The position numbers and the translations under genes are program-made. A DNA stretch of 64,000 nt from Betaproteobacteria bacterium (lineage in GTDB: Bacteria > Pseudomonadota > Gammaproteobacteria > Burkholderiales > JACQAP01), in contig JACQAP010000029.1 in assembly GCA_016194905.1 (NCBI GenBank), positions 62,001-126,000 of the forward strand. The letters are read 5' to 3'. Under the pieces are notes generated by a model. The model worked only from the letters and a program-made list of their open reading frames with translations. It ran no database searches and was not told where the DNA came from. This document shows positions 5,209 through 25,564 of the stretch, in pieces (the first letter of the stretch is position 1; each line of letters starts with the position of its first letter).

Positions 5209-6099
5209 ATGAAAACAATTTTAATCACTGGCGCCGCGGGCGACGTCGGTACGCATCTGCGCCGCGAGCTGGCCGGCAAGTACCATCTCCGTTTATCCGA
5301 CGTGCGGCCGATCAATGCGCTCGCCGCCGGAGAAAAATCGGCGCCCGGCGACGTCGCAAAGATGTCCGACATGCTGCGCGTCACCCAGGATGTGGATGCG
5401 ATCGTGCATCTCGGTGGATTTTCGGTCGAAGGGCCGTGGGAGATGATCCTGCGTGCCAACATCATCGGCTGCTACAACCTGTTCGAGGCCGCGCTCAGGA
5501 ACGGCGTCAAGCGCGTGTTGTTCGCGTCCAGCAATCACGCCACCGGCTTCTACAAGCGCGACGAGAAGATCGATCACCGTGTCTATCCGAAACCGGATAG
5601 CCGCTACGGCGTTTCGAAGGCCTTCGGCGAGCAGATTGGCAGTCTCTATGCCGACAAGTACGGCATGGAAGTATTCTGCATGCGCATCGGCAACGTCACG
5701 ATTGCGCCGCCGGACAAGCGGCGGCTGTCGAACTGGATCAGCCCGCGCGATTTCGCCCGGCTGGTCTCGGTGGGCATCGACAATCCGAATATCCGTTTCG
5801 AAATCGTCTACGGCGTCTCCGACAACAAGCGCAGCTGGTACGACAATGCGAACGCGCATCGGCTCGGTTATCAACCGCAGGACGATGCCGAGCGTTATGC
5901 CGACGAAGTGCTGGCCAGGGAGAAGCCGGGCGATCCGCGTGCCGAGAGGTATCAGGGCGGCAACTTCGTGTTCGCCGAGATCGGCGGCGACCCGAGTCGC
6001 AGGGCTCCTGATTTGGGGAAGGCCCCTAAACTTGGTAAGGCGCGAAAGTCAAAGAAGGCCCCCAAGCTGAAGAAAGCGCCGAAACCGAAGAAGAAATGA
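5209..6099 (+). CDS. NAD-dependent epimerase/dehydratase, uronate-dehydrogenase-like, with a lysine-rich tail
   Basis: 296 residues from the ATG at 5209. The Rossmann motif TGAAGDVG is at residues 7-14, IVHLGGFSVEGPWE at 65-78, and the catalytic pair Y133/K137 sits in YGVSK. These blocks match uronate dehydrogenases, which oxidise C1 of hexuronates to aldarolactones with NAD; the substrate here remains an inference. The last 30 or so residues are unusual: a repetitive Lys/Ala/Pro tail (APKLGKARKSKKAPKLKKAP...). The start at 5140 would add 23 unrelated residues. The stop overlaps the ATG of the amidohydrolase stub. Confidence 0.85.
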   Translation: MKTILITGAAGDVGTHLRRELAGKYHLRLSDVRPINALAAGEKSAPGDVAKMSDMLRVTQDVDAIVHLGGFSVEGPWEMILRANIIGCYNLFEAALRNGVKRVLFASSNHATGFYKRDEKIDHRVYPKPDSRYGVSKAFGEQIGSLYADKYGMEVFCMRIGNVTIAPPDKRRLSNWISPRDFARLVSVGIDNPNIRFEIVYGVSDNKRSWYDNANAHRLGYQPQDDAERYADEVLAREKPGDPRAERYQGGNFVFAEIGGDPSRRAPDLGKAPKLGKARKSKKAPKLKKAPKPKKK

Positions 6100-17715: not shown

Positions 17716-17792
17716 GGTTTGCATCCGTGAACCAAGACCTGTGATGAAAATGGCCATCGACCGGTTAGCTTGAATGCGTTACCATTATCCGG

Positions 17793-17957
17793 TCATTGGG
17801 GAGTAGTCGCTCTTCGCACGAAGAGGCTTGCGTCAACACACTTGACCGTTTGGTCATGGCGCAAGCGGTTCCTTAGCTTGGCGAGACCTTTGACCATATC
17901 GTCTTCGGACTGGCCGGAGAAGCGATCTGGTCATTCGTCTTTAGTCCGGCCAAGGGG
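17793..17957 (+). promoter_or_regulatory. yybP-ykoY (manganese) riboswitch
   Basis: The two hallmark loops are present: GGGGAGTAG at 17798-17806 and GGCGAGACCTTTG beginning at 17880, with paired flanks (TGACCA 17891-17896 with TGGTCA near 17927). Downstream, GGCCGGA (17912-17918) can pair with TCCGGCC (17945-17951), which abuts the AAGGGG ribosome site at 17952-17957, giving a plausible on/off helix. Known members bind Mn2+ and turn on Mn exporters (MntP, Alx, UPF0016). It sits before a UPF0016 remnant and a CaCA-type exchanger, so it should report metal excess. Confidence 0.88.
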
Positions 17958-17962
17958 TACCC

Positions 17963-18151
17963 ATGGAAGCTTTCCTCATATCAACGGACATCGTTTCCCT
18001 CGCCGATATCGGCAATAAGACTCGACGTCTCGCGTTCACCGCCGCTGCGGAGTTTCGCAATCCTCCTTCTGATCGAGATCGCCATTCTGGTCGCAGTGCT
18101 GGCGAACCTGTCATCTGCCGGTGCGAAGGAATCCCGAAGGTGGATCTATGA
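17963..18151 (+). pseudogene. Decayed 5' part of a UPF0016/MneA-type manganese exporter gene, now a short upstream ORF
   Basis: The ATG at 17963 follows the riboswitch ribosome site. The first residues, MEAFLISTDIVSLADIGNKT, match the start of UPF0016 (Gdt1/MneA) proteins, normally MEAFLvStg.valaEiGDKTqLLal. The key Glu and Asp are changed (ADIGNKT for AEIGDKT). After about residue 32 homology jumps to another frame (LLIEIAILVAVLANLSSAG), so a frameshift occurred, then the gene ends. The frame that remains is 62 codons and its TGA overlaps the ATG of the exchanger (ATGA), so it may now serve as a coupling leader ORF. Confidence 0.72.
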
Positions 18152-19158
18152 CTGGCTTCGTCTTCGAATTGATCGTGATGCTCTTTGTCATTCTCGCGGC
18201 ATCGGAACTGTTCACCAATGCATTGGAGCATCTGGGGGAGAGGCTCAAGATTTCCGAGGGGGTGACCGGCTCTTTGTTCGCCGCAGTCGGCACGGCGCTT
18301 CCGGAAACGATGGTTCCGCTCCTTGCGCTGTTCGCCGGCACCGCCAATGTCAGTGTAAACGAGGAGATCGGCGTCGGGGCTATCCTCGGCGCCCCTTTGA
18401 TGCTGTCGACGTTATCGACCTGCCTCATGGCTCTGGCCGTACTGCCGCGACGGGGAGCGGTGGGTCATGTCAGCCCGGAACGAAGCGGCTTCGTGCGCGA
18501 CCTCAACTTCTTCCTGTTTGCATTCACGCTTGCCGCAGCGGCGATGTACGCTCCGCAAGAAGCACGTTACGTCCGAGGCGCACTGAGCTTCGCGCTTGTG
18601 CTGACCTACTTTATTTACATCATGCTGACCCTTCGTGCGTCGGAGCGGTTAGTTGGGGATGGTCACGGCACTGAGGCGGAGCAAAGGATGTTCTTAGCCC
18701 GGATTGGCCTGCCGACAAACTTGCTCACGATTTTACTTCAGCTGGGTATTGGACTTGTCCTGCTTGTATTTGGTGCCAAGGGTTTCATTTCAGGGGTTGA
18801 GGGTGTGTCGCATTTGCTTGGTATTTCCGCACTCTTGCTGTCGCTGCTGATTATTCCCATAGCAACCGAACTTCCCGAGAAGGTGAACAGTATTCTCTGG
18901 ATTCGACGAGGCAAGGACACGCTTGCCTTCGGCAATATCACCGGCGCGATGGTGTTTCAGGGCACGTTGCTCCCGGCCATTGGCATCATGCTGACGCCGT
19001 GGCAACCCCGTATCGAAGTTCTGAGTGGTGTTCTGGTCACACTGATCGCTGCCGCATGGCTTCGTATCAACTCGCGAAGCCCAGGGCTGCCGATCTGGGC
19101 GCTATCGATTAACGGTGCCTTGTACGTAGCCTATCTTGTAATAACGCTTAAGCGATGA
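18148..19158 (+). CDS. CaCA-family cation exchanger (Na+/Ca2+-type) under Mn riboswitch control
   Basis: 336 residues from the ATG at 18148. About ten hydrophobic helices form two inverted halves, with alpha-repeat motifs GTALPETMV near 48-56 and ATELPEKVN near 240, each carrying the ion-binding Glu. YrbG-like members are normally 310-360 residues. Sitting behind a yybP-ykoY riboswitch and overlapping an MneA stub, it probably exports Mn2+ or another divalent metal rather than serving calcium homeostasis, which is inference from context. Its stop overlaps the next gene's ATG. Confidence 0.85.
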   Translation: MTGFVFELIVMLFVILAASELFTNALEHLGERLKISEGVTGSLFAAVGTALPETMVPLLALFAGTANVSVNEEIGVGAILGAPLMLSTLSTCLMALAVLPRRGAVGHVSPERSGFVRDLNFFLFAFTLAAAAMYAPQEARYVRGALSFALVLTYFIYIMLTLRASERLVGDGHGTEAEQRMFLARIGLPTNLLTILLQLGIGLVLLVFGAKGFISGVEGVSHLLGISALLLSLLIIPIATELPEKVNSILWIRRGKDTLAFGNITGAMVFQGTLLPAIGIMLTPWQPRIEVLSGVLVTLIAAAWLRINSRSPGLPIWALSINGALYVAYLVITLKR

Positions 19159-20120
19159 GAGGGACAAATACCATGCATAGTGAAAATTGGTCCGCTTGGA
19201 CCCACGACCACGTATTCGACGAAGGAAGCCATGCTGCCGAGCGGGGTACGCGAATTGTCATGTGGATCACCGCCGCGATGATGGTGATCGAAATTGTTGC
19301 TGGCTGGAGGTTCAACTCGATGGCGTTGTTGGCCGATGGTTGGCACATGAGCTCTCACGCTGTAGCCATTGGCCTGAGTGCGTTTGCGTACGCCGCAGCG
19401 CGGCGCTACGCCCGCGATTCTCGATTCGCCTTCGGTACATGGAAGATTGAAGTGCTCGGCGGATTCGCCAGCGCCATTTTTCTGCTGGGTGTCGCCGCCC
19501 TCATGGTATTCGGTTCAGTCGAGCGTATTTTCTCGCCGCAACCAATTCACTACCAGGAGGCGATGATCGTCGCGACGGTTGGACTTCTCGTGAATATCGT
19601 CTGCGCGATCATTCTGGGCAGGGCGCACGATCATCATGCCCCGGGTGCGCATGATCATGCCGGACACCGGCACCAGGAACATCATCACGATCTGAATCTG
19701 AAATCGGCCCATATGCATGTCATCGCGGATGCTGCGACATCGGTTCTCGCGATCGTGGCGCTGGCCGGTGGATGGTTCTACGGGTGGTCATGGCTTGATC
19801 CGGTCATGGGAATTGTCGGAGCCGTGCTGGTAGCCGTCTGGGCGAAAAATCTCCTCGCGGAAACCGGCAAAGTGCTACTGGACCGGGAGATGGACCACCC
19901 TGTTGTCGAGGAAATTCGCGAAGCGGTGGAGACCGGGCCGGATGCTGGGGAGACTCGCATTGCCGATTTGCACGTCTGGCGCGTCGGCAAGCAGTCCTAC
20001 GCGTGCGCGATAAGTCTCGTCACCCACGCCGAGGCGCTGACGCCTCAGCGCGTCAGGGAACAACTTGCTCAACATGAGGAAATCGTCCATGCAACGGTCG
20101 AAATCCAACGCTGCCATTAG
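19155..20120 (+). CDS. dmeF: CDF-family Co/Ni(-type) efflux transporter, DmeF-like
   Basis: 321 residues (an ATG at 19173 with GAGGG upstream is an alternative start). It begins WTHDHVFDEGS, and helix 2 has LLADGWHMSSHAVAIGLS. A His-rich cytoplasmic loop at about 155-175 (HDHHAPGAHDHAGHRHQEHH) is followed by HMHVIADAATSVLAI in helix 5 and a C-terminal metal-sensing domain. The WTHDH start and ADGWHMSSHA block are typical of DmeF, an exporter of Co2+/Ni2+. It overlaps the exchanger gene by four bases, so the Mn riboswitch may also control it. Confidence 0.85.
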   Translation: MRGTNTMHSENWSAWTHDHVFDEGSHAAERGTRIVMWITAAMMVIEIVAGWRFNSMALLADGWHMSSHAVAIGLSAFAYAAARRYARDSRFAFGTWKIEVLGGFASAIFLLGVAALMVFGSVERIFSPQPIHYQEAMIVATVGLLVNIVCAIILGRAHDHHAPGAHDHAGHRHQEHHHDLNLKSAHMHVIADAATSVLAIVALAGGWFYGWSWLDPVMGIVGAVLVAVWAKNLLAETGKVLLDREMDHPVVEEIREAVETGPDAGETRIADLHVWRVGKQSYACAISLVTHAEALTPQRVREQLAQHEEIVHATVEIQRCH

Positions 20121-20343: not shown

Positions 20344-20976
20344 CTACCCGATTGCACTAGCCGGTGAGAATCGCAGAGCCTGGAATGCCTGTCTCAGGAC
20401 ACGAATTGCGGAAGTCAGAAACAAGCTAGCGATAACGACACCGACAATGATGTCCGGCCAACGCGATACCAACATGTAACTGAATCCCGCAGCAGCCAAT
20501 ACGCCTACGTTCGCGATCAGGTCGTTGCGCGAGCAAAGCCAGGTCGAACTCATATTGAGATTGTCGCTACGGTGACGGTACAACAGGAAAAAGCACACGA
20601 GATTAGCGACCAGGGCGATCCCACCGACAATGCCCATGGTCTCGACGCTCGGCATGATGGGATTGAGCGCCTTGTACGCGGCCTCTCCAAGCACACCGAA
20701 TCCGAATATGAGCATGAACGAACCTTTGGCTGCCGCTGCGCTCGCCTGCCAGCGTACCGAACGTGCCAGTACAAATAAGCTGAAGCCGTATACGAGTGCG
20801 TCACCGAGCATATCTAGCGCATCCGCCATTAACGAAGTCGAATGAGCCAGAAGACCGGCCACGCCTTCACCGAAGAACATCAGCGCATTGATGGCGAGCA
20901 CAACCCACAGAACGCGTTGATGACTTTCACGCATTGCGGTGATCTCACAACTCTTGTCTTCGCAGCAACTCGCCAT
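20344..20976 (-). CDS. Compact cation transporter of the CDF superfamily with an N-terminal CC..C motif
   Basis: 210 residues, shorter than classical CDF pumps because the cytoplasmic C-terminal domain is missing. It starts MASCCEDKSCEI, a Cys cluster that could bind metal. Six hydrophobic helices follow, with SLMADALDMLGDALVYG (DxxxD metal site) in helix 2 and CSRNDLIANVGVLAAAG in helix 5. Proteins like this accompany czc/mer clusters in Betaproteobacteria. A truncated relative lies at 60710. Substrate metal unknown. No close minus-strand gene is coupled to it. Confidence 0.8.
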   Translation of the reverse strand: MASCCEDKSCEITAMRESHQRVLWVVLAINALMFFGEGVAGLLAHSTSLMADALDMLGDALVYGFSLFVLARSVRWQASAAAAKGSFMLIFGFGVLGEAAYKALNPIMPSVETMGIVGGIALVANLVCFFLLYRHRSDNLNMSSTWLCSRNDLIANVGVLAAAGFSYMLVSRWPDIIVGVVIASLFLTSAIRVLRQAFQALRFSPASAIG

Positions 20977-21099
20977 ATAGCCGATTTTAACCTGGGAACA
21001 CGTCAGAGGTGGCGCACCGTGCCGTGGACGCTCGGAATTGCCGTCAGACAGGCCGCTCCTTCGGAGCCAGTGCCTAGAATTTGGATACTTTGCCGACCT

Positions 21100-22008
21100 T
21101 TACACGAGCGCGCAATCGTGCGGTACCTCACCCAGTTCAATTTGAAGTGTGGCGTGATGAATGCGGAAATGGTGCTCCAGCTCCTCGGCAGCGTCCGCCA
21201 TGAAGCGGTCTCCGGGATGCCCGCCAGGCATGACCAGATGCGCCGTCAGCGCAGCTTCGGTGGTGCTCATCCCCCAGACGTGCAAATCATGCACTTCCGT
21301 TACGCCTGGCAGGTCACACAGGTAAGTCTGCACGGATGCCATGTCGATGCCCGTGGGTACGGCATTGAGCGCTAGGTTGATCGCATCGCGCAAGAGTCCC
21401 CACGTCCCCACCAGAATCACCGCCACGATCACCAGGCCGATCATCGAGTCGATCCAATGCCAGCCGCTCAGGAGAATGGCGAGCCCGCCCAGGACTACGC
21501 CCAACGATACTGCCGCATCCGCAGCCATGTGCAGAAACGCGCCGCGGATGTTGAGGTCGGTCCTCCGACCAGACATGAACATCCAGGCGGTAATACCGTT
21601 GACCCCAATCCCGATGGCAGCGACGATCATTACCGTCGTGCCCTGGACTGGCGCCGGAGTGCCGAAGCGCTGCACCGCTTCCCACATGATCGCTCCACAC
21701 GCGAGCAGCAACAACATCGCGTTAGCAAGCGCGGCGAGAATCGACGAGCTGCGCAGTCCATAGGTAAACCGCGTTGTGGGCCGGCGGCGCGCCAGCGCCA
21801 GTGCACCCCATGCCAGCAGCAGGCCCAACACATCCGACAGGTTGTGGCCGGCATCGGCAAGCAGCGCCAGCGAACTGGCGAGCACACCATAGACTGCCTC
21901 GACGATGACGAAAGCGACGTTCAGTGCGATGCCGATGGCGAACGCGCGGTTGTAATTCCCGGGTTCGTGGACGTGCCCGTGATCGTGTCCTGCGTGATTG
22001 CCGCTCAA
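21100..22008 (-). CDS. czcD: CDF-family Zn/Co/Cd efflux transporter (CzcD/ZitB-like)
   Basis: 302 residues. The N-terminus is His-rich (MSGNHAGHDHGHVHEPGNYN), and helix 2 has LADAGHNLSDVLGLLLAWG with the HxxxD site. Helix 5 has HMAADAAVSLGVVLGGLAI, and a C-terminal ferredoxin-like domain contains VTEVHDLHVWGMSTTEAALTA. This is the standard CzcD/ZitB pattern: proton-coupled export of Zn2+, Co2+ or Cd2+ to the periplasm, where the RND pump encoded on the same strand upstream takes over. It lies 79 bases after the PII-like gene. Confidence 0.9.
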   Translation of the reverse strand: MSGNHAGHDHGHVHEPGNYNRAFAIGIALNVAFVIVEAVYGVLASSLALLADAGHNLSDVLGLLLAWGALALARRRPTTRFTYGLRSSSILAALANAMLLLLACGAIMWEAVQRFGTPAPVQGTTVMIVAAIGIGVNGITAWMFMSGRRTDLNIRGAFLHMAADAAVSLGVVLGGLAILLSGWHWIDSMIGLVIVAVILVGTWGLLRDAINLALNAVPTGIDMASVQTYLCDLPGVTEVHDLHVWGMSTTEAALTAHLVMPGGHPGDRFMADAAEELEHHFRIHHATLQIELGEVPHDCALV

Positions 22009-22087
22009 GTTTTTGTCTCCTTACGTCGATCAGCGATTTGTAAATTTACTTTTCGTCGGACCTGACAGTCGGTTGTTTGCGAGTTCA

Positions 22088-22429
22088 TCAGCTACCAATT
22101 TGCATGGCCGATTCGACTGTGGTTATGTAGACCCATCCTGCTTCGCCTTGTCCCGTTCGTCCGGACATTGCTACTACGTTCGCCAACCGCTCTGCGTCGG
22201 TGTCCACGCACAGAAGTTCCAGCTTGTATTCTTCGATCACCGGCTCGGCGAGATCCATGGAGTAGCGCTGCTCTTTCGTATCGACGGCCGTCAGAAGACT
22301 TTGCACTGCGGCGACGTTGATGTTACGCATGCCACCCGGATGACCCGTCGCCGCTAAGTCGGCCAATTTGAGGGCCTCGATCACCGCTGCGATGCGGTGC
22401 TTGTGAATGAATGCCTTGATCTCCTTCAT
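22088..22429 (-). CDS. PII-like signalling protein of metal-efflux operons
   Basis: 113 residues from the ATG at 22429, which has AAAGGA upstream (an ATG five codons earlier is less well placed). The fold pattern is PII-like: MKEIKAFIHKHRIAAVIEAL at the start and GRTGQGEAGWVYITTVESA near the end, the segment that in GlnB forms the B-loop. The T-loop region lacks the uridylylated Tyr context of GlnB. PII-like proteins next to CzcA/CusA genes are known, but their role is not settled; sensing nucleotide or metal to tune export is plausible. It follows the czcA gene by 18 bases. Confidence 0.8.
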   Translation of the reverse strand: MKEIKAFIHKHRIAAVIEALKLADLAATGHPGGMRNINVAAVQSLLTAVDTKEQRYSMDLAEPVIEEYKLELLCVDTDAERLANVVAMSGRTGQGEAGWVYITTVESAMQIGS

Positions 22430-22447
22430 GGATTTTCCTTTCATACT

Positions 22448-25400
22448 CTATGCTCGGGATGCTGCGGTCACCGGGGCGGATTTCTGTTGGCGTTCAATGC
22501 GTGTTTCCACCCATTCGTATATGAGCGGTAGCAGAAGCAGCGTCAGGGCCGTCGAGGTGAACAAGCCACCGACCACCACTGTCGCCAATGGCCGCTGCGT
22601 CTCGGCGCCCACGCCGCTGGAGAGCAGCATGGGAACCAGCCCGAGAATCGCTACTGAGGCCGTCATCAGAACCGGCCGCAGGCGCAATGCCGCGCCTTCC
22701 CGCACCGCCTCGCGCACCGAGCGCCCCTGGCTGCGCAGATCGTTCAGGAAGGTGAGCAGCACGATGCCGTTCAGCATCGCCACGCCGAATACGGCGATGA
22801 AGCCGATGGCGGAGGGCACCGATACGTATTGCCCCGTGATGGCCAGACCGAAGACACCACCGATGACGGCAAAGGGCACGTTGGCGATGATCATGGCCGC
22901 GTACCGCACCGAATTGAAGGCGGTGTACAGCAGGATGAAGATGAGGCCGATGGTGAGCGGTACGATCACCGCGAGCCGCGCCAGCGCCCGCTGCTGGTTT
23001 TCGAAGGCGCCACCCCATTCCATCCAGTAACCGGTCGGGAGTTTCACCTTGTCGCGGATCCTCGCTTCCGCCTCCTTCACGAAGCCGTCCACATCGCGCC
23101 CCTTCACGTCCATCTGAATCACCGCGTAGCGCTGCAACTGCTCGCGGCGGACGAACGAATAGCCTTCGTCTGTTTCTATCGAGGCTACCCGGGACAGCGG
23201 CACGAGTGCCCCTGACTGCGTGCGGATGGGAATATCGCTGATGGCCTGCTGACTGTCGCGGAAAGCGGCATCCAGCCGCACCTGGATATCGAAGCGCTTC
23301 ACGCCATCGATAACCGTGCTGACACTCTTGCCGCCTATTCCCGCCTGAACGACTTCGAGGACCTCGTCGGCATTGATGCCATAGCGGGCCGCCTCGTCGC
23401 GGTTGACCTTGATCACCATCTGCGGCTTGCCCTTGTTCGCCTCCAGCGCCAGGTCCGCGGCCCCGGGCACTTTGTCGAGCACCATCTTCATTTCGCCCGC
23501 CAGTCTGTCGAGCGTGGCCAGGTCTTCGCCATAGATTTTCAGGGCCAGAGTCGCGCGCACGCCGGAAATGAGTTCTTCGACTCGCATCTGGATCGGCTGG
23601 GTGGCCCCGAATACCACCGTGGGAATGGATATTTCCAGGACTTCCTGCATCTCCCCGGAAAGCTCGGTCATGCTCATTTTCCCGGGCCACTCTTTCTCCG
23701 GCTTCACATCGACCAGCACTTCCATATAGTTGACATCCGCCGTCTCGCCCTTCTCGGCGCGGCCGATGGTCGCAAGCGTGGACTTTACCTGGGGGAAGTT
23801 CTGCTTCAACGCGGCGTCGAACCTCTTCGCAACGCCTATGCTCTCCTCCAGCGAGGTGGACGGGATACCCGTCACCCGGAACATGATCGTGCCTTCCTGC
23901 AGGGTGGGCATGAATTCCTTGCCGAGAAACGGAAACACCGCCAGCGATGCGGCCAGCAGCACGGCGGCCGCGCCGATGACTTTGCGTTTGTTGTCGAGCG
24001 CCCAGTCCAGCAGCGGCAGATAGAAGCGCTTGGCCTGGCGCACGATGAAGGTGTCCTTCTCCTCCTTCGCCTTCAGGATCAGCGCTGCCAGTACTGGCAC
24101 GAGCGTCAGCGTCAGAATGAGCGAGCCGACCATGGCGAAGGTGATGGTGAGCGCCATGGGCTTGAACAGCTTGCCCTCCAGTCCGGTGAGCGAGAACAGT
24201 GGCAGGAAGACCACGATGATGATCAGGATCGCAAAGGCGATGGGGTTGATGACTTCTTTTGCCGCCGCGAGCATCACGTTTGTCCGGTTCACCTCTTTGC
24301 CGGCGTGGTGAGAGAGCAGCCGAAAGCCGTTCTCCACCATGACCACGGCGCCGTCCACCATCATGCCGATGCCGATGGCGAGGCCGGCAAGCGACATCAG
24401 GTTGGCCGACATGCCGGCGTACTGCATCAGGATGAAGGCGATGAGCATCGCGAGCGGCAGGGTGACGACCACGACGATGGCTGAACGGATTTCGCCGAGA
24501 AACAGGAACAGCACTATGGCCACCAGGATAGAACCTTCGATCAGCGCACTTTCCGCGGTCTTCAGCGCCTTATCCACGAGTTCGGTACGGTCGTACACCG
24601 GGTTGATGGAAACCCCTTTCGGCAGTGCCTGCTTCGCCGTCAGCAGCTTTGCCTTTACCGCATCGGTGACATTCTTGGCGTTCTCGTTGATGCGCGCCAG
24701 TACGATGCCCAGCGACACTTCCCGGCCATCCCTGGTCACCGCGCCAAAGCGAAGACTGGGCGCCTCCTTCACCTCGGCCACGTCGCGTACATAGACGGGC
24801 GCACCCTCGCGCTGCGTAATCACGACGTTGCCGATATCGCGTGTACCGGTGACCAGCCCCAGTCCACGCACCAGATACTGCTCCTGGCCCAGGTTCACGT
24901 ACTGGCCGCCCACCTGGCGGTTGTTGGCGGCGAGTGCTTCCATTACCGCCTTGAAGGTGAGGCCGTACTTGATCAGCTTCTGCGGTTGGATCAACACCTG
25001 ATATTGCTTCTCGTCGCCACCCCAGGAAGTCACGTCGTCGACTCCCGGCGCGGTGCGCAGCAGCAGGCGTACGTTCCAGTCCTGCAGCGTGCGCAAATCC
25101 ATGGTGGACAGCTTCTGGTCGGCTGACTCGACGGTGTACCAGAACACCTGCCCCAATCCGGAACTGTTCGGCCCCAGTGACGGCTCGCCGTAGCCTTCGG
25201 GAATGCGGGCCTTCGCTTCCAGCAGTTTCTCCCCGGCGAGCCGGCGGGCAAAGTAGATATCCACGTTGTCCTTGAAATAGACGCTCACATAGGACAATCC
25301 GAACAGCGACACGGAGCGAATTTCCTCGACTCCAGGCAACCCCGCCATGGCGGTTTCCACCGGGAACGTCAGCAGTTTCTCCACGTCCTCGGCGGCGAGC

Positions 25401-25564
25401 CCCGGCGACTCGGTATACACGTTGACCTGTACCGGCGTCACGTCCGGAAACGCGTCCACCGGCACGGCGCGAAACGCCTGCACGCCGAACACCACGATGA
25501 GCAGGAATCCGACCAGCACCAGCACCTTGTAGCGCAGGGATATGTCGACAATTGAATTCAACAT
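22448..25564 (-). CDS. czcA: Heavy-metal RND efflux pump, CzcA-type inner-membrane subunit
   Basis: 1038 residues, full length for the HME-RND family. Helix 1 is followed by PVDAFPDVTPVQVNVYTESPG, the hallmark of metal RND pumps. Helix 4 holds the proton-relay signature GMMVDGAVVMVEN, and two large periplasmic loops and twelve helices are present. It should take divalent metal from the periplasm or cytoplasm and drive it through CzcB/CzcC to the outside using the proton gradient. It lies 11 bases after czcB in the order C-B-A-PII-CDF. Exact metal inferred from neighbours (CzcD-like pump), not seen. Confidence 0.92.
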   Translation of the reverse strand: MLNSIVDISLRYKVLVLVGFLLIVVFGVQAFRAVPVDAFPDVTPVQVNVYTESPGLAAEDVEKLLTFPVETAMAGLPGVEEIRSVSLFGLSYVSVYFKDNVDIYFARRLAGEKLLEAKARIPEGYGEPSLGPNSSGLGQVFWYTVESADQKLSTMDLRTLQDWNVRLLLRTAPGVDDVTSWGGDEKQYQVLIQPQKLIKYGLTFKAVMEALAANNRQVGGQYVNLGQEQYLVRGLGLVTGTRDIGNVVITQREGAPVYVRDVAEVKEAPSLRFGAVTRDGREVSLGIVLARINENAKNVTDAVKAKLLTAKQALPKGVSINPVYDRTELVDKALKTAESALIEGSILVAIVLFLFLGEIRSAIVVVVTLPLAMLIAFILMQYAGMSANLMSLAGLAIGIGMMVDGAVVMVENGFRLLSHHAGKEVNRTNVMLAAAKEVINPIAFAILIIIVVFLPLFSLTGLEGKLFKPMALTITFAMVGSLILTLTLVPVLAALILKAKEEKDTFIVRQAKRFYLPLLDWALDNKRKVIGAAAVLLAASLAVFPFLGKEFMPTLQEGTIMFRVTGIPSTSLEESIGVAKRFDAALKQNFPQVKSTLATIGRAEKGETADVNYMEVLVDVKPEKEWPGKMSMTELSGEMQEVLEISIPTVVFGATQPIQMRVEELISGVRATLALKIYGEDLATLDRLAGEMKMVLDKVPGAADLALEANKGKPQMVIKVNRDEAARYGINADEVLEVVQAGIGGKSVSTVIDGVKRFDIQVRLDAAFRDSQQAISDIPIRTQSGALVPLSRVASIETDEGYSFVRREQLQRYAVIQMDVKGRDVDGFVKEAEARIRDKVKLPTGYWMEWGGAFENQQRALARLAVIVPLTIGLIFILLYTAFNSVRYAAMIIANVPFAVIGGVFGLAITGQYVSVPSAIGFIAVFGVAMLNGIVLLTFLNDLRSQGRSVREAVREGAALRLRPVLMTASVAILGLVPMLLSSGVGAETQRPLATVVVGGLFTSTALTLLLLPLIYEWVETRIERQQKSAPVTAASRA

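Follow-up and report, generated by a model that had tools for sequence, protein, structure and literature searches.

The locus considered here lies within a window, the whole stretch of 64,000 nucleotides that was analysed, and the coordinates of the locus are positions within it. On the forward strand a riboswitch is followed directly by a short open reading frame (ORF), and this in turn by genes of two transporter families, with the components arranged as follows.

17786 to 17962, forward strand: Mn2+ riboswitch (yybP-ykoY, RF00080), assigned by sequence to the GDT1-controlling class; cmscan, 106.2 bits
17952 to 17957, forward strand: Shine-Dalgarno (SD) sequence AAGGGG of the leader ORF, read from the sequence, with predicted pairing to UCCUU of the riboswitch
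17963 to 18151, forward strand: 62-codon leader ORF, derived from the start of a GDT1/UPF0016 gene; profile, DNA alignment and ORF list
17963 to 18064, forward strand: in-frame GDT1 remnant, residues 1-34, with ExGDKT degraded to DxGNKT; profile, 41.1 bits
18072 to 18125, forward strand: out-of-frame GDT1 remnant containing ILVAVLANLSSAG, in the +1 frame past an extra base; 7.8 bits, a weak match, and DNA alignment
18137 to 18143, forward strand: SD-like AAGGTGG of the CaCA gene, read from the sequence
18148 to 18151, forward strand: ATGA overlap of the CaCA start and the leader stop, read from the sequence
18148 to 19158, forward strand: CaCA (Na_Ca_ex) exchanger of 336 amino acids, presumed Mn2+ exporter; PF01699, 96.9 bits; NCX_Mj, E 4e-6
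19155 to 20120, forward strand: dmeF, Co/Ni exporter of the CDF type; NF033827; start codon at 19155 in an ATGA overlap with the end of CaCA, or alternatively at 19173

The riboswitch had been proposed in the initial annotation from the sequence, and the Infernal search with RF00080 bears this out, with a covariance-model score well over the gathering score of 45 (E 5.4e-27), although the match begins 7 bases before the start of 17793 given there. It is also the sole RF00080 match found in a search of the whole genome (4.75 Mb). In the predicted fold the bases of AAGGGG are paired with probabilities of 0.46-0.99 per base, the first five of them at 0.52-0.67 with the UCCUU strand, and this pairing lies close to the closing pairing of the Rfam model, GGUUCCU with GGGGuACC. 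As to the class of the riboswitch, comparison with 60 other aptamers places 25 nearest to it, at 64-82% identity, of which 24 precede a GDT1 gene; the nearest CaCA-linked aptamer is 64.1% identical. A tree of 61 sequences including that of the window, for which 24 of the 44 CaCA-class loci described below were selected (all but L154 and L163 of these being in the tree), likewise puts the window riboswitch among GDT1-linked aptamers, with successive node supports of 0.08-0.91 that leave its exact sister unsettled. One tip labelled as GDT1-linked, L057, is among the 29 top riboswitches and has no GDT1 after it, and for L043 the downstream sequence in the GDT1 comparison was limited to 370 bases. 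On aptamer similarity, then, the riboswitch of the window is of the GDT1-controlling class.

Two of the aptamers have unusual surroundings. The riboswitch of L057 (G098:C56, 1501-1670) precedes an ORF that reads like a secreted or outer-membrane protein, with GDT1, CaCA and dmeF all absent within 1.4 kb. In L074 (G002:C362, same genus) a Mn riboswitch of 69.1 bits, running from 4379, lies near the end of its contig; its position in the tree is closer to the CaCA class, a search of that genome found no CaCA, and GDT1 is not recognisable in the 228 bases left after the riboswitch, which is apparently orphaned.

What, then, is the short ORF that begins at 17963, the first base past the riboswitch match? 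The family to which its start points, GDT1/UPF0016, includes exporters under Mn2+ riboswitches, also known as MntX or MneA. A profile was built on the N-terminal 60 residues of those 28 GDT1 proteins of relatives that are encoded directly after RF00080. It matches residues 1-34 of the ORF with an E value of 2.7e-12, whereas none of 500 shuffled versions of the ORF scores above 3.3 bits. The UPF0016 similarity claimed at the outset is thereby upheld at the level of this profile, with Pfam itself silent, as the PF01169 search reported no family for the 62-codon ORF. The genome has an intact GDT1 of its own elsewhere, which shares 16 of 33 residues with the ORF, and the 12-kb stretch around it (L005) gave no RF00080 match. 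Members of the family carry one or two copies of the motif ExGD(K/R)(S/T), according to excerpts of PMC7380456. In the 62-codon ORF the corresponding residues read DxGNKT, and only 5 of the 11 residues that are invariant across the 28 GDT1 proteins are kept. Differences at second codon positions average 6.8 for the stub versus 2.4 between pairs of GDT1 genes. When differences at first and second positions together are divided by those at third positions, the value for the stub (0.75) is not extreme, as 2 of the 28 intact GDT1 genes exceed it, and the argument for relaxed GDT1 constraint therefore rests on the motif residues. Judged by these features the ORF is the decayed start of a GDT1 gene, and most likely a remnant rather than a working antiporter. 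Among the loci examined, the GDT1-stub arrangement occurs in the genome of the window only. A separate case of what is apparently a decaying GDT1 is found in the riboswitch-GDT1-dmeF locus L052 (G019:C5), where GDT1 matches in two pieces in different frames.

The DNA alignment of the stub to the 28 GDT1 genes contains one extra base near codon 35, with 55-78 of 104 bases identical over the first part, 18-30 of 45 over the next and 10-23 of 41 over the last. The frameshift reported initially thus stands, and the continuation of GDT1 in the +1 frame is matched weakly, at 7.8 bits over residues 37-54. The former GDT1 frame runs on to 18674, some 526 bases into the exchanger (ORF 18096-18674), and the one-base insertion shifts the stub into a frame that stops at the start codon of the exchanger, with the TGA at 18149-18151 overlapping the ATG at 18148-18150 as first described. 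The GDT1 frame is indeed broken, but to see only decay in this is to miss a part of it, since the insertion sets the stop at the start of the exchanger. Could the insertion be an error of sequencing or assembly? It is a single-base difference in one genome, and yet such an error is a very improbable explanation of the stub, for even with that base removed GDT1 would be cut short after ~53 residues, its reading continuing out of frame through CaCA as far as 18674, and its motif residues are substituted as well.

There is clearly more than chance in the riboswitch and in the GDT1 match, but only weakly so in the ATGA overlap at the window locus taken by itself, since 6.7% of shuffles also yield a coupled frame, a figure in keeping with an alternative account in which the stub is a roleless remnant of a pseudogene, the riboswitch acts through transcript stability or termination, the exchanger starts from its own SD and the overlap is coincidental. 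CaCA could start unaided because it has its own SD-like AAGGTGG upstream. Further points on the side of this account are that NTGA at the CaCA start is frequent also in loci without a riboswitch, and that the switch of Bordetella pertussis is interpreted, in excerpts of PMC8546581, as stopping transcription.

The two transporter genes are as the initial annotation had them, a CaCA exchanger and then dmeF. PF01699 is found in the exchanger in two stretches, and the dmeF product, counted from 19173, scores 355.5 bits with NF033827, for which the cut-off is 250. In the second repeat of the exchanger, the only repeat compared, alignment to NCX_Mj shows the Glu kept and Gln at the Asp position of what we take to be the Asp and Glu cation-site residues of that protein. 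By analogy with BP3410 of B. pertussis, the exchanger would export Mn2+. The window locus is situated within a metal-resistance cluster; on the reverse strand, 20344-25564 holds two CDF-like genes and a gene for a 1038-residue protein resembling RND heavy-metal efflux pumps, all named from their translations. A plasmid origin of the locus was considered and set aside, no plasmid record covering 80% of it having been found.

The pairing of riboswitch and exchanger is widespread. A scan of named genomes listed 80 of 524 CaCA relatives, and these are the loci compared, 69 of them having been run through Rfam and 11 judged by motifs only. Of the 80, 44 have RF00080 immediately before CaCA, as Rfam confirmed for each one. 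A 45th riboswitch locus, L103 in a Methylobacter sp. metagenome-assembled genome (MAG; JAQTLI010000124.1), has GDT1 fused in frame to CaCA as one ORF of 552 residues (647-2302) in which both Pfam families are found, downstream of a riboswitch at 458-633; two exporter families are thus joined in one protein. The remaining 35 loci comprise 24 that are RF00080-negative, L123 among them being cut by its contig end, and the 11 judged by motifs. The order was sampled with 399 genomes, of which 93 have CaCA relatives and 140 have RF00080 (105 over the cut-off), and by eye, among the matches listed, the two adjoin in at least 11 other genomes, 7 of these having a distant CaCA of 31-35% identity. In a class-wide draw of 360 genomes, 23 had RF00080 and 36 had CaCA (E up to 1e-15), with adjacency, again by eye among the matches listed, in the window's genome only. 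Outside the order the riboswitch-CaCA pair is found in Mangrovitalea (L161, Pseudomonadales), and the riboswitch with the fused GDT1-CaCA in the Methylobacter MAG (Methylococcales); Chitiniphilus (L120) belongs to the Neisseriales according to NCBI. Near other CaCA loci, Rfam reported a SECIS_3 element (RF01989, 83.3 bits) at 427-485 on the reverse strand of L108, from a Burkholderiales MAG, and a Group II intron (RF02005, 124.9 bits) at 5882-6097 on the forward strand of L129, downstream of CaCA in Paraburkholderia elongata.

In B. pertussis the CaCA exporter BP3410 has been shown by experiment to export Mn and to be under a Mn riboswitch, according to excerpts of PMC8546581, and the succession of Mn riboswitch and CaCA-superfamily exporter there is that of the window locus. 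Because of this case and of the 44 of 80 loci that share the pairing, CaCA under RF00080 is not new, which removes one half of the original proposal that the riboswitch had been handed to a new transporter, namely that CaCA is a novel client. The other half is retained: the riboswitch of the window is of the GDT1 class, it is followed by a decayed GDT1 start, the stub abuts CaCA, and the class of the riboswitch therefore supports a handover at this particular locus.

Fundamental to the interpretation of the stub is that a short leader ORF is present in all 44 listed riboswitch-CaCA loci, where it closes in an NTGA overlap with the CaCA start. These leaders begin with ATG, GTG or TTG, 5-7 bases past an SD (GGAG, GGAA or GGAT) at the end of the riboswitch in every one of the 44, and in 43 of them the riboswitch tail lacks other-frame start codons 4-11 bases past an SD-like tetramer. 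Their lengths range over 17-56 codons and the peptides are unrelated between genera. The window locus and the 44 thus share an SD-started upstream ORF with its stop in a NUGA overlap with the following start. In GDT1 loci it is the gene itself that starts at the position of the leader start (28 of 29). Of the 11 genomes from the order sample, apart from G099, G098 and G324, whose upstream regions were left out of this reading, the same layout recurs in G207, G176 and G284, and in G010 with a distant CaCA; in G119 the coupled leader opens with a GTG that lacks the SD pattern of the others. Distant loci G138, G236 and G296 (31-33% identity) have no NTGA start: in G296 the CaCA start is 2 bases past the riboswitch match, and G138 and G236 have riboswitch matches that stop early, with probable CaCA starts 79 and 103 bases on. 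A mechanical rule requiring a coupled, SD-started ORF is satisfied by 43 of the 44 riboswitch-CaCA loci versus 4 of the 36 others, a set that includes L103, where the riboswitch is present and the gene fused. The single riboswitch locus to miss the rule is L104, with GGAT as its SD, and the four others to satisfy it are L094 and L098 (Nitrotoga), L123 (whose contig ends inside the region) and L171. About 130 bases before CaCA, the Candidatus Nitrotoga loci L094, L097, L098 and L100 have a riboswitch-like tail but no aptamer. Of these, L094 and L098 still have a coupled leader, of 32 codons; in L097 the leader has lost the frame, and in L100 it has lost both the frame and a start codon at the leader position.

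The coupling has also been maintained as the leaders changed. On a CaCA tree of 47 tips the leaders come in 14 distinct lengths, with at least 20 changes of length between them. Every one of these preserves the frame, and if one change in three keeps the frame by chance, the chance that all 20 would do so is ~3e-10. A shuffle test of the coupling gave a product of 5.6e-5 over four leader groups (60% identity cut), one group containing 45 of the 48 loci. Riboswitch, short ORF of any sequence, NUGA overlap and CaCA are thus, in this sequence survey, a general design of the Mn-riboswitch operons of the close CaCA subfamily, mostly in the Burkholderiales. The account in which the overlap is coincidental is unlikely in the face of 44 differing leaders that all keep frame through at least 20 length changes, and of coupled ORFs in just 4 of 36 other loci. 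It had been suggested initially that the old GDT1 start was kept as a coupling leader peptide; its part as a leader ORF is retained, while any peculiarity of the GDT1 start is not, because all 44 loci have unrelated short ORFs with the same overlap. Folding of the leaders of four representatives against shuffled leaders gave no effect of masking of the CaCA SD (mean z 0.00), and a hairpin at the window locus that would mask this SD, with a pairing probability of 0.43, was dropped since it shows no excess over shuffled leaders. The claim of a relay rests on frame conservation for this reason.

We therefore consider it likely that a Mn2+ riboswitch that formerly started a GDT1 gene now drives the CaCA exporter through a leader relay. 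Most of GDT1 would have been lost beside a CaCA-dmeF unit, leaving the first ~50 codons, and a later insertion of one base would have changed the frame of this stub to the one with its stop on the start codon of CaCA. At high Mn2+ the riboswitch would release the SD of the stub, and ribosomes would translate the 62-codon leader, stop at its UGA and restart on the overlapping AUG. Through such termination-reinitiation at the overlap CaCA, and probably dmeF, would be made at high Mn2+.

The likely sequence of events can be related to several existing arrangements. Riboswitch-GDT1-dmeF is found in three loci, L037, L052 (with the frameshifted GDT1) and L062, of which L037 matches a conjugative Hydrogenophaga plasmid, and CaCA-dmeF without a riboswitch in Nitrotoga and Uliginosibacterium. 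The fused riboswitch-GDT1-CaCA of L103 and the riboswitch-GDT1-dmeF loci are possible intermediates, and the window locus can be derived from recombination of any of riboswitch-GDT1-dmeF, CaCA-dmeF and riboswitch-GDT1-CaCA. In the dmeF tree the gene of the window groups with those of both riboswitch-GDT1-dmeF and CaCA-dmeF, so that a parent operon is not indicated.

A different origin, compatible with the relay, is that a CaCA-class riboswitch with its leader was replaced by recombination with a GDT1-class riboswitch and GDT1 start. This has some plausibility, though we lean against it. Four of the six Nitrotoga-like CaCA loci examined (81-83% CaCA identity) keep a CaCA-class-like tail, and two of these four have a coupled leader without an aptamer; reshuffling of this kind is also seen in Polaromonas L104, which pairs a riboswitch near that of G010 with a close-subfamily CaCA and has its own 56-codon leader. 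Against such a replacement, the arrangements riboswitch-GDT1-CaCA and riboswitch-GDT1-dmeF exist, and a deletion within an operon therefore suffices; moreover, the Nitrotoga upstream regions of L094, L097 and L098 align to the window locus no better than shuffles, 23-40 of 200 being as good.

Might the leaders of Mn-riboswitch CaCA operons in general be worn-down starts of displaced GDT1 genes, with the window locus the youngest and still readable and L103 an early stage? On such a scheme deletion would remove the body of the first client gene but leave its start with the riboswitch, and the next gene would become the client by termination-reinitiation. At its base in the aptamer tree, the CaCA class is joined by GDT1-type aptamers, first that of L056 (support 0.97), then those of L064 (0.03) and L103 (0.77), which fits a GDT1 origin of the CaCA-class leaders without proving it, and we regard so general an origin as doubtful.

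How does the proposed relay compare with known systems? Of 333 strains screened that have a UPF0016 member, 328 carry its gene under a Mn2+ riboswitch, according to excerpts of PMC7380456. With riboswitch-controlled GDT1/UPF0016 exporters the window locus shares the aptamer class and the position of the start codon right past the riboswitch, whereas its directly controlled gene is a stub that ends at the start of another exporter. The riboswitch-GDT1-dmeF operon of Hydrogenophaga plasmid pPBL-H3_B2-1 has the same riboswitch class and the same downstream dmeF, but its GDT1 is intact and CaCA is absent. For BP3410, a leader ORF goes unmentioned in excerpts of PMC8546581, whereas the window has one. 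The closest parallel in mechanism is the B12 riboswitch of Mycobacterium tuberculosis ppe2, with the upstream ORF uPPE2, an AUGA overlap and demonstrated termination-reinitiation (excerpts of PMC11260477). Here the succession of riboswitch, short ORF, AUGA overlap and downstream gene is shared, and the reinitiation shown for ppe2 is what we infer at the window locus. Ligand and phylum differ, ppe2 lacks an SD whereas the CaCA of the window has an SD-like site, and, relative to the ppe2 case described in those excerpts, the design of the window recurs across an exporter subfamily and includes one leader of traceable origin. None of the titles and abstract openings searched describes a leader ORF lying between CaCA and a Mn riboswitch, which is weak evidence of absence. 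A copper-responsive upstream ORF is reportedly the subject of one published paper (PMC9426467).

The handover of a riboswitch with the start of its old client still legible is thus a new arrangement of known parts. On the relay reading, the regulated start in riboswitch-CaCA operons differs from the exporter gene's own start, and a translated leader is predicted in those genomes of Burkholderia, Paraburkholderia and Caballeronia that have such an operon. It would also follow that a riboswitch can switch client without redesign of its expression platform, with the first codons of the old gene acting as a translated adaptor to which the new gene is hooked by a stop-start overlap.
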